Assembly (NCBI GenBank): GCA_002256205.1 | Contig: NKIW01000003.1 | Coordinates: forward strand, 62,001 to 126,000 | Source of the DNA: Rhizobiales bacterium PAR1 | GTDB taxonomy: Bacteria; Pseudomonadota; Alphaproteobacteria; Rhizobiales; Beijerinckiaceae | DNA: 64,000 nucleotides | Direction: 5' to 3' | Part shown: one piece after another, positions 48,608 through 51,610 of the stretch | Layout: the number at the start of each line of letters is the position of its first letter | Position numbering within the stretch: the first letter of the stretch is position 1 | Position numbers and translations under genes: made by a program | Notes under the pieces: generated by a model | Told to the model about the DNA's origin: nothing | The model's input: only the letters and a program-made list of their open reading frames with translations | The model's database searches: none

Positions 48608-49081
48608 ATGACAAACCGGCGTTTGTTCCAGGCGTTCCTGTTGGCGGCTTCGGCACTCGCCCTGAGCGGCAGTGCTCAGGCGCAGATGCTGACCGGGCCG
48701 GAGATCAAGGAGCTCTTCTCGGGCAATACGGTGGCCGGAATCTACGTCGCCGGAAATTTCTTCTCGGAGTTCCATTCGAGCGATGGGCGTGCGCTCGGTG
48801 ATAACGGCTACACGCTCAACGTCGATGCCTGCTGGAATACCGATGGCGACAAGGCGTGCTATCACTACGGCCAGCCGAAGGATCGGCGCACCTATTGCTT
48901 CACGGTCGAGAAAAACGGTGACAGTTACAGCCTGCGTACGTCGGATACGGGGCGCCTCAATGCCGTGGCGAGCATTGAAAAGGGCAATCCCCGCAACCAC
49001 ACGGACGGCGGAAAACGCTGGTCCTGTGACGATCTGATGTCGCGGCGCGGTGCCGTGCCGCACATGGCGCGCCTGAAATGA
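48608..49081 (+). CDS. Secreted protein of unknown function
   Basis: A 157-residue protein with a signal peptide (about 1-24, ending SGSAQAQ). The mature part begins MLTGPEIKELFSGNTVAGIY and has the look of a small beta-rich periplasmic domain with four cysteines (in VDACWNT, DKACYHY, TYCFTV and WSCDDL). I do not recognise a function; similar EIKELFSGNTV starts occur in uncharacterised alphaproteobacterial exported proteins. It starts 5 bases after the GST stop, so it is probably cotranscribed. Confidence 0.75.
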   Translation: MTNRRLFQAFLLAASALALSGSAQAQMLTGPEIKELFSGNTVAGIYVAGNFFSEFHSSDGRALGDNGYTLNVDACWNTDGDKACYHYGQPKDRRTYCFTVEKNGDSYSLRTSDTGRLNAVASIEKGNPRNHTDGGKRWSCDDLMSRRGAVPHMARLK

Positions 49082-49197
49082 CGTGCATTCAAATGATCCG
49101 TGTCATGGCGCAGGCCCTGATTTCGCCCTTCTCTGTTCATCTCGAGTCTAGGCGCGTGCTGCGAGGCTAGCGTACGGAAATTTCCAGGAGGAAAGCC

Positions 49198-51534
49198 ATG
49201 CAAACCGATGCAATGATGCGAACCGAGGGAAAAAGGACACCCGTCCTTCGCCTTTTGGCGCTCGCCTGTCTGACACTGCTGGTTGGCCTGTCCGCCGCCG
49301 AGGCGCAGGGTAAACGGCTGGGGCTTGTGATCGGCCTTGCGGATTACGGCGATGTCAAGCACCCTACCGCCTTGCAGGATGCCGGTCTTGTCGCGCAGAG
49401 CCTCAAGCAGGACGGTTTCGAGCTGATGGAGGCCGCCAACCTCACTCAAAGCGAATTCCGTGCGATGTTCCGCGATTTCACCGAACGCGCTGGCGCTGCA
49501 GGGCCGGATGCCGTGCTCGCGGTCTATATCTCGGGTGTCGCGCTTCAGGACGATGGCGAGAACATTTTGCTCCCGGTCGGCGCGCGCCTGCGCCAGCGGT
49601 CCGATTTGGCGCTGGAAGGCCTGCGCGTCGGTGATTTTCTCCGCTCGCTCTCCAGCCTCCCGGCTTCGGCGCGGATCGTGATGCTGGATGCGTCCTACAC
49701 TCACCCGCTTGGTCAGCTTGTGGCGGAAGGTGGCCAAGGCCTGGCCCCCGCCGAAAAGCGTGACGGGCTGCTTGTCTCCTACAACCAGAGCCCGGATCAG
49801 GTCGCGACCTTGCCGCGTACCAACTACGGTCATTACGCGATGGCGCTCGCCGAAGCACTGCGTGAACCGGGACTCGATACCAACGGCATCTTCGAGCGGG
49901 TTCGCCTGCGCGTTCATGATCTCAGTCAGGGCGCGGAAACGCCTTGGGCGGTTTCCGGTCTTTCGGCGCCGCTGATCCTTGTGCCCGGTGTGGCCGGTGC
50001 ACCGGTGGCCGCGCAAACACAGGAGTTCATCGAGGCCCGCCGCAAGCCGATCGGTCAGCTCGGCGCCGATGATGCCTATTCCCGCGCCATCGAACTCGAT
50101 ACGATTCCCGCTTACGAGGAGTTCCTGAAGGCCTATCCGAGCCACGTTCAGGCCAAACGCGTGCGCGCCATGATTGCCGCACGCCGCGAGGCCTACACAT
50201 GGCAGCGTGCCCGCCGGACGAATACCGATCGCGCCTACTGGACCTATCTCCGCCGCTACCCGAATGGCGCGCATGCCGCCGAAGCCGAATCCCGGCTTGC
50301 ACGCCTTGCCGCGCCGGTGGTGCCGCCGCCGCAGTTCGAGGAGGTGATCTATGATGACCTCCCGCCGCCCTTGCCCGAAGAGCTGGAAATCTACGAATCG
50401 GTGGTGATCGAAAATCGCTGGGGCATGTTGCCGCCGCCGACGGGCTATTCGGATCGCTTTCTGCCGCCGCCGCCGATCGAGATCATCGAACTGGCGCCGC
50501 CGCCGCCGAACCCGTCCTCGCGCCTGCTTCCGGCCGTCGTGATCGGCGCTGGCGTTGTCGGGGCCGCCATTCTGGCTAATCGCGCATGGAAGCGCCCGGC
50601 AGAGGTTCGCCCGGTTGTGGCCCCACCCGTCATGCGTCCTCCCCGTGTGCCTGGCCAGTTCGGCATTCAGCAGCCGGTTCGCCCGCCAATGGGGCAACCG
50701 CCTGTGGGCGCTGTCCAGCAGCCGGTTGCGCCTCTGGGAGGTATGCGCCCACCCATTGGCCAACCACCGGTTGGCGTGGTTCCGCCGGTCGGTGGCGTTC
50801 AGCAGCCGGTTGTGCCACCGGGGGGCGTTCGTCCGCCGGGTTCGCCGCCGGTAGGCGTGGTTCCGCCCGTTGGTCAACCGCCAGTCGGTCAGCCCGGTGC
50901 CATCCGCCCGCTTCAGCCGGGTGCTGTGCCGAATGCGCCGTCGGGCTTGCCGCGTCCCGGCGCGATTCCGCCGCAAGGGGGACTGCGTCCGCCGCAGGCG
51001 CCGAATGCCCCAGGTGCTCCGGTTCAGACCGCGCCTCCTCCTGCCACGTCGGGGCAGCCGGGCGCCTTGCCTCCGAGCGCCTTGCCTCCGGGTGCTGCGC
51101 CGCAGGGCCGCCCCTTGGTCGGTGCTCCGCCGTCGGTAAGTGGTGCCCCGTTGGGCGGTCCGCGTCCGCCACAGGCACCGACCGCGCCGGTTGCTGCCCC
51201 GCCGACAGGTCCGAGGCCGGTTCGGCAGGTGCCGCTGACGCAATCGCCGCAGATGCGTCCTTCACCGCCGCCGGCCAATGCACCGCGCTATATGCCGGTG
51301 CCGCAACGCCCCGCGCCGCAGGTTCGTCAAGGGCCCGTGCCGCAATATCGACAGGCCCCGCCGCCTCAGGTGCGTCAGGCACCGCCGCCGCAGGTCAGGC
51401 AAGCGCCTCCGCCGCAGCAGTTCCGGGCGCCTCCGCCGATGATGCGCCAGGCCCCGCCGCCGCAAGCCCGACCGGCTCCGCCGCCCGCGGCAAGGCCTTG
51501 CACACCGCAGATGCGTGCTGCCCGTCAGTGCTGA
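49198..51534 (+). CDS. Inactive caspase-fold (pseudocaspase) protein with proline-rich C-terminus
   Basis: A 778-residue protein; AGGAGG lies just before the ATG. Residues 1-37 form a signal peptide. Residues about 38-260 have the layout of a C14 caspase (p20) domain: GKRLGLVIGLADY, LQDAGLVAQSLKQDGFEL, then AVYISGVALQDDGENILLP and IVMLDASYTHP. The catalytic His of the usual YxGHG is replaced (V114) and the catalytic Cys of LDACR is Ser (S166), so it should not be a protease. Residues about 290-375 carry alpha-helical repeats (YEEFLKAYP, YWTYLRRYPNG), about 443-463 form a hydrophobic Gly-rich segment, and 464-778 are Pro/Gln/Val-rich repeats ending in two Cys. Function unknown; perhaps envelope scaffolding. 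Confidence 0.82.
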   Translation: MQTDAMMRTEGKRTPVLRLLALACLTLLVGLSAAEAQGKRLGLVIGLADYGDVKHPTALQDAGLVAQSLKQDGFELMEAANLTQSEFRAMFRDFTERAGAAGPDAVLAVYISGVALQDDGENILLPVGARLRQRSDLALEGLRVGDFLRSLSSLPASARIVMLDASYTHPLGQLVAEGGQGLAPAEKRDGLLVSYNQSPDQVATLPRTNYGHYAMALAEALREPGLDTNGIFERVRLRVHDLSQGAETPWAVSGLSAPLILVPGVAGAPVAAQTQEFIEARRKPIGQLGADDAYSRAIELDTIPAYEEFLKAYPSHVQAKRVRAMIAARREAYTWQRARRTNTDRAYWTYLRRYPNGAHAAEAESRLARLAAPVVPPPQFEEVIYDDLPPPLPEELEIYESVVIENRWGMLPPPTGYSDRFLPPPPIEIIELAPPPPNPSSRLLPAVVIGAGVVGAAILANRAWKRPAEVRPVVAPPVMRPPRVPGQFGIQQPVRPPMGQPPVGAVQQPVAPLGGMRPPIGQPPVGVVPPVGGVQQPVVPPGGVRPPGSPPVGVVPPVGQPPVGQPGAIRPLQPGAVPNAPSGLPRPGAIPPQGGLRPPQAPNAPGAPVQTAPPPATSGQPGALPPSALPPGAAPQGRPLVGAPPSVSGAPLGGPRPPQAPTAPVAAPPTGPRPVRQVPLTQSPQMRPSPPPANAPRYMPVPQRPAPQVRQGPVPQYRQAPPPQVRQAPPPQVRQAPPPQQFRAPPPMMRQAPPPQARPAPPPAARPCTPQMRAARQC
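50680..51500 (+). repeat. Imperfect tandem repeats encoding proline-rich tail
   Basis: The tail of the pseudocaspase gene is built of short degenerate repeats: units of the type QPPVGVVPPVG (about 50690-50905) and units of the type QVRQAPPP (about 51310-51470). The repeats are of coding period and not spaced like a CRISPR array. Confidence 0.8.
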
Positions 51535-51560
51535 ACCTCTCAAGAGGCTAAACCAACAAA

Positions 51561-51585
51561 AAAGGCCGGGTTTCCCCGGCCTTTT
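51561..51585. terminator. Bidirectional intrinsic terminator
   Basis: AAAGGCCGGG (51561-51570) pairs with CCCGGCCTTT (51575-51584) across a TTTC loop, with A runs before and T after. It lies between two convergent genes and fits termination in both directions. Confidence 0.88.
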
Positions 51586-51610
51586 CTTTGTCTGAACGTT
51601 AGGCTCGTGA

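Follow-up and report, generated by a model that had tools for sequence, protein, structure and literature searches.

A predicted exported pseudo-orthocaspase with a proline-rich tail and a C-terminal cysteine pair in Rhizobiales bacterium PAR1

We have analysed a 778-amino-acid ORF (49198-51534, + strand) in a 64,000-nucleotide stretch of the Rhizobiales bacterium PAR1 genome, hereafter the window. Its product belongs to the known pseudo-orthocaspase kind. Computation shows that the caspase fold has been kept and the catalytic dyad lost across the clade, and that the fold and its specificity pocket are under purifying selection. We put at about an even chance the reading that the protein is a vertically inherited, exported, non-proteolytic alphaproteobacterial pseudo-orthocaspase that would serve as an envelope binding protein with a disulfide-tipped arm. 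A scaffold role in the envelope, suggested in an earlier sequence-only reading of the window, is plausible.

From N- to C-terminus, the protein comprises a predicted signal peptide (residues 1-36, 49198-49305, cleavage site between AEA and Q, no lipobox Cys), a caspase (Peptidase_C14) domain (residues 40-257, 49315-49968), a short TPR-like helical repeat segment (residues 281-374, 50038-50319), a hydrophobic Gly-rich stretch (residues 443-463, 50524-50586, LLPAVVIGAGVVGAAILANRA) and a Pro/Gln-rich tail (residues 464-778, 50587-51531), all on the + strand. The ORF, coordinates and residues given in the sequence-only reading were matched exactly, including its tail of about 315 residues (length 315, 32% Pro, 11% Gln), and its protein layout stood. 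It had overlooked a conserved C-terminal cysteine pair, C768-C778 (CTPQMRAARQC and then the stop codon; 51499-51531, + strand). Of three cysteines in total, C24 belongs to the signal peptide; exactly two, C768 and C778, are left in the mature protein, and they stand at its very C-terminus. Export, also proposed earlier, is a prediction from the hydrophobic, signal-peptide-like N-terminus present in 105 of 106 relatives and from the paired terminal cysteines. A 772-aa antisense ORF (48925-51243, - strand) was rejected as a shadow of the GC-rich sense frame; its 38-49% matches in relatives reflect conservation of the sense strand. A terminator-like hairpin just past the stop codon, readable on both strands (51558-51587), is a weak prediction, as two such hairpins were found versus 2.7 expected by shuffling.

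A caspase fold without its catalytic dyad

Peptidase_C14 was the single Pfam family over the cut-off, and far over it (residues 40-257, E 1.6e-19). Alignment with intact GHG/DACR homologues places V114 (49537-49539, + strand; YISGV) in the catalytic His column and S166 (49693-49695, + strand; LDAS) in the catalytic Cys column, which bears out the substitutions named earlier. Residues 36-375 were modelled using AlphaFold with an alignment of 22 relatives as input (pLDDT 89.6, pTM 0.89). The caspase fold claimed beforehand was predicted confidently over residues 36-263 and recognized by both Foldseek and VIA, and the refuting outcome named in the sequence-only reading, a prediction without this fold, did not occur. 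The best solved matches were MALT1 and animal caspases (Foldseek E 9.9e-12), and MALT1 was aligned over 211 residues at 2.6 A and 18% identity (VIA Z 25.6). As to a p10 part, no further Pfam family was detected, yet the modelled fold covers the complete caspase domain of MALT1 (339-562). The likeness to the MALT1 paracaspase is that of the closest solved fold; MALT1 itself is an active, Arg-specific eukaryotic protease with Ig domains, whereas the window protein has lost the dyad. A sequence search against known structures gave nothing useful, NCBIfam caspase_w_EACC1 matched far below its cut-off, and no PADLOC anti-phage defence profile matched the window protein.

C24, C768 and C778 being the only cysteines, there is no displaced catalytic Cys that could restore a different His/Cys pair. 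A non-enzymatic protein, as had been supposed, is well supported: the domain is without Cys, and Cys is absent in 103 of 103 dead-clade rows and His in 97 of them. Catalysis through S166 or another residue would draw on the Ser at the nucleophile position, but the His position is Val, the domain has no Cys, and among 46 non-redundant dead members Ser occupies the Cys position in 3 and Ala in 41, which makes residual activity extremely unlikely.

The gene was found in 15 of the 17 genomes from the genus, which includes Rhabdaerophilum sp. SD176, and in 7 of a further 20 from the family (E below 1e-60). The SD176 domain (L034) is identical to that of genome G002, and one genome of the family carries two tandem pseudocaspase genes (L162, G025:C1:2988000-3003000). 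Named relatives occur in Bradyrhizobium, Afipia, Rhodopseudomonas, Chelatococcus, Methylocapsa, Microvirga and Mesorhizobium. Among 113 aligned rows, 9 are intact (HC) and the rest are mostly YA (63), followed by IA, LA, HA, VS, VA, RA and rarer pairs; the searches were seeded with dead members and returned only nine intact rows, and these counts describe this clade rather than all caspases. A single branch (support 100/99) splits the dead clade from the intact homologues. The V/S pair is private to two lineages, that of the window protein and that of G008 with its duplicate record L037. The idea that the pair might be conserved across a clade did not hold, and it is dyad loss that the clade conserves instead. 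Loss of Cys first, and of His later and several times, fits the tree, but this ordering hinges on where the root lies and on deep branches with weak support, and we make no claim for it. The HA members are scattered over the tree.

Constraint on the domain lies elsewhere than in the former catalytic columns, which come only 118th and 137th out of 227 when positions are ordered by conservation among the 46 non-redundant dead members. Asp61 (49378-49380, + strand), the equivalent of an S1-pocket Asp, is Asp in 113 of 113 aligned rows; together with Asp164, the second such equivalent, two residues N-terminal of the Cys position (49687-49689, + strand), it is invariant in all 46 dead members, with the equivalence set by alignment. 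Pairwise dN/dS in the dead domain is ~0.03-0.12, and the domain is under purifying selection. Loss of both catalytic residues could also be the mark of a decaying pseudogene, to which we assign practically no probability; it is refuted by the selection data, and the frame is open in 15 of 17 congeneric genomes and conserved in place. According to PMC6426788, where the metacaspase S1-pocket aspartates are named, pseudo-orthocaspases have a p20 domain with a substituted His-Cys dyad, lack a p10 domain and carry two acidic residues in the specificity pocket. The window protein has the caspase fold of an orthocaspase p20, lacks the catalytic dyad (V114, S166) and, by alignment, carries D61 and D164 in the pocket.

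Helical segment, tail and terminal cysteines

Residues 281-374 are strongly conserved (WQRARRTNTDRAYWTYLRRYPxGxH) and, when modelled alone, reached an AlphaFold pLDDT of 93.8. The best solved matches were to BamD (VIA Z 7.6), a weak score within reach of unrelated helical repeats, and the profiles OM_YfiO (NCBIfam, E 0.047) and TPR_16 (Pfam, E 0.077) stayed below cut-off. This weak resemblance in fold and profile to BamD/YbgF-type TPR proteins lies below the level separating true relatives from chance, with no sequence family over the cut-off. The hydrophobic stretch at residues 443-463 is conserved within the genus, and a Pro-rich aromatic stretch stands in its stead in Bradyrhizobium and Afipia. 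Lacking conservation beyond the genus, it is unlikely to be essential to how the protein is built. Followed as it is by Lys/Arg, it could be a membrane helix that leaves the tail in the cytoplasm, an arrangement that would argue against a disulfide.

The tails of relatives vary in length and composition. In 75 complete dead members with a tail of more than 250 residues, a set that includes some duplicate records, the last 30 residues contain exactly two Cys in 64 cases and no Cys in 11. After removal of members at least 85% alike, 32 non-redundant relatives were left, with two terminal Cys in 28, none in 4 and one in 0; the two are spaced 4 to 9 residues apart, with 0 to 4 residues after the last. 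The cysteine pair comes and goes as a unit. Additional mature Cys are absent in 31 of the 32, and an all-or-none pair with almost no other Cys is the pattern predicted by a disulfide. We infer from this pattern that a C768-C778 disulfide forms. The four relatives without the pair count against the main reading. The terminal pair was not found in the nine intact outgroup proteins. A general sorting signal was rejected as an explanation of the motif on the basis of two patterns scanned in this genome, CTPxxR-type and C-x-P-x7-C-stop, which occur in no other plausible gene of it.

The locus and a caspase-less relative

The gene is flanked by genes for a histidine kinase, an SNase, a GST, a small exported protein upstream and a hydroxyisobutyrate-type dehydrogenase. 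This neighbourhood is conserved throughout the genus and in part between families, which points to vertical descent. The small exported protein (48608-49081, + strand) is encoded directly upstream on the same strand at every one of the 12 congeneric loci inspected, and also in G035, which branches deeply. It has several Cys, is conserved in the genus, occurs as tandem duplicates in G027, G030 and G035, and has no Pfam, NCBIfam or PADLOC match. Its link to the pseudocaspase is suggestive only, because G003 and G027 have it without a caspase-bearing neighbour.

G003 is a congeneric genome, 100% complete, with no C14 gene. Its same syntenic slot holds a 268-residue protein (L160 7977-8786, - strand) with a signal-peptide-like start, a Pro-rich chain, no caspase and the end GRCTPQMVQQKMC. 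It has only two mature Cys, both in this CTPQM...C end, which is similar to that of the window protein. From its place, signal peptide and C-terminal motif, we read it as an orthologue minus the caspase head. Its Pro-rich chain resembles the other tails only weakly (z 0.4 to 4.1), and because the chain is of low complexity, sequence similarity cannot prove orthology. In G027, no such Pro-rich, Cys-ended ORF lies between these flanking genes.

The G003 protein favours an alternative, which we hold to be possible though clearly less probable than the main reading, in which an exported, cysteine-tipped Pro-rich chain would be the functional unit, and the dead caspase and TPR-like part an optional, secondary head. 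Against it, only one such genome was seen, its common descent is argued from place, signal peptide and C-terminal motif beside that weak Pro-rich similarity, purifying selection on the caspase domain is strong in every case measured, and 4 of 32 relatives keep the head without the Cys pair.

Relation to published pseudo-orthocaspases and proposed function

Bacterial pseudocaspases had been called little described in the sequence-only reading, which two surveys contradict. In 2012, ~25% of alphaproteobacterial caspase homologues were found to be without the dyad (PMC3501461), and a 2019 survey described 862 pseudo-orthocaspases from bacteria (PMC6426788). Of these, 561 belong to Rhizobiales, and YA types with a long, undefined C-terminus are included. 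The YA/YS proteins described there are mostly from Rhizobiales and share with the window protein the p20 domain, the lost dyad, the pocket Asp pair and a long domain-less C-terminus; our relatives from Bradyrhizobium and Afipia belong to the YA type. The genus of the window protein differs in its aliphatic His position (I, L, V), outside the common dyads given in PMC6426788, whose consulted passages also make no mention of a terminal cysteine pair. A role as a photosynthesis-related factor would follow from the correlation published there for pseudo-orthocaspases, and is extremely improbable for this protein: the link is absent here, in that the genome holding the window has no reaction-centre gene and such genes are missing from 10 of the 22 genomes that bear the pseudocaspase; for the genus, the figure is 6 of 15. 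Like the window protein, the Synechocystis pseudo-orthocaspase SyOC is a dead bacterial caspase homologue; it is a cyanobacterial protein, and its knock-out tolerates oxidative stress better (PMC7889975, abstract). In open-access main texts, we did not find reports of the aliphatic His replacement, the Cys pair, the head-less orthologue or the failed photosynthesis link, nor, in the envelope and secretome literature, anything on such proteins.

An animal precedent exists for dead caspase homologues as decoys or regulators of an active caspase in the same cell, in the well-known role of c-FLIP, which regulates caspase-8. The genome holding the window has one intact C14 gene, but 12 of 15 congeneric pseudocaspase genomes have no other C14 gene, so that an endogenous partner is largely refuted and regulation of this kind is very unlikely. 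The sole other C14 gene of the window's genome (L002 1381-3633, G000:C21) keeps its SGHG and DACHSG motifs intact and begins with a signal-peptide-like sequence.

With a regulator of an active caspase unlikely and a photosynthetic role unsupported, a non-enzymatic envelope binding protein remains. In this preferred reading, the two terminal cysteines would close a small disulfide loop in the oxidising periplasm or at the surface, and the extended tail would hold the head away from whatever the disulfide tip contacts. The p20 domain would bind, without cleavage, an Arg/Lys-carrying protein or peptide; the Asp pair behind this proposed basic-residue binding is also present in intact members, which counts against it. 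The TPR-like segment may be a second binding face. Candidate contact sites are the pocket, the TPR-like segment and the cysteine tip, and the small exported protein encoded just upstream would be the first candidate partner.

In the open-access literature found, dead bacterial caspases are known mainly from surveys and one knock-out. The present clade is a clean case: predicted to be exported, without a second caspase-type gene beside it in most congeners, and not consistently linked to photosynthesis; the published ideas therefore do not fit it. The paired terminal cysteines and the caspase-less relative, new with respect to the papers found, hint at an arm that is as important as the caspase; together they split the protein into two separately testable parts. 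We regard as tentative a wider view in which these proteins form a widespread exported Hyphomicrobiales family whose core would be a Pro-rich arm with a terminal disulfide loop, the dead caspase being an exchangeable, even dispensable, binding head. If this is true, the caspase fold here would be an envelope adhesion or adaptor module.
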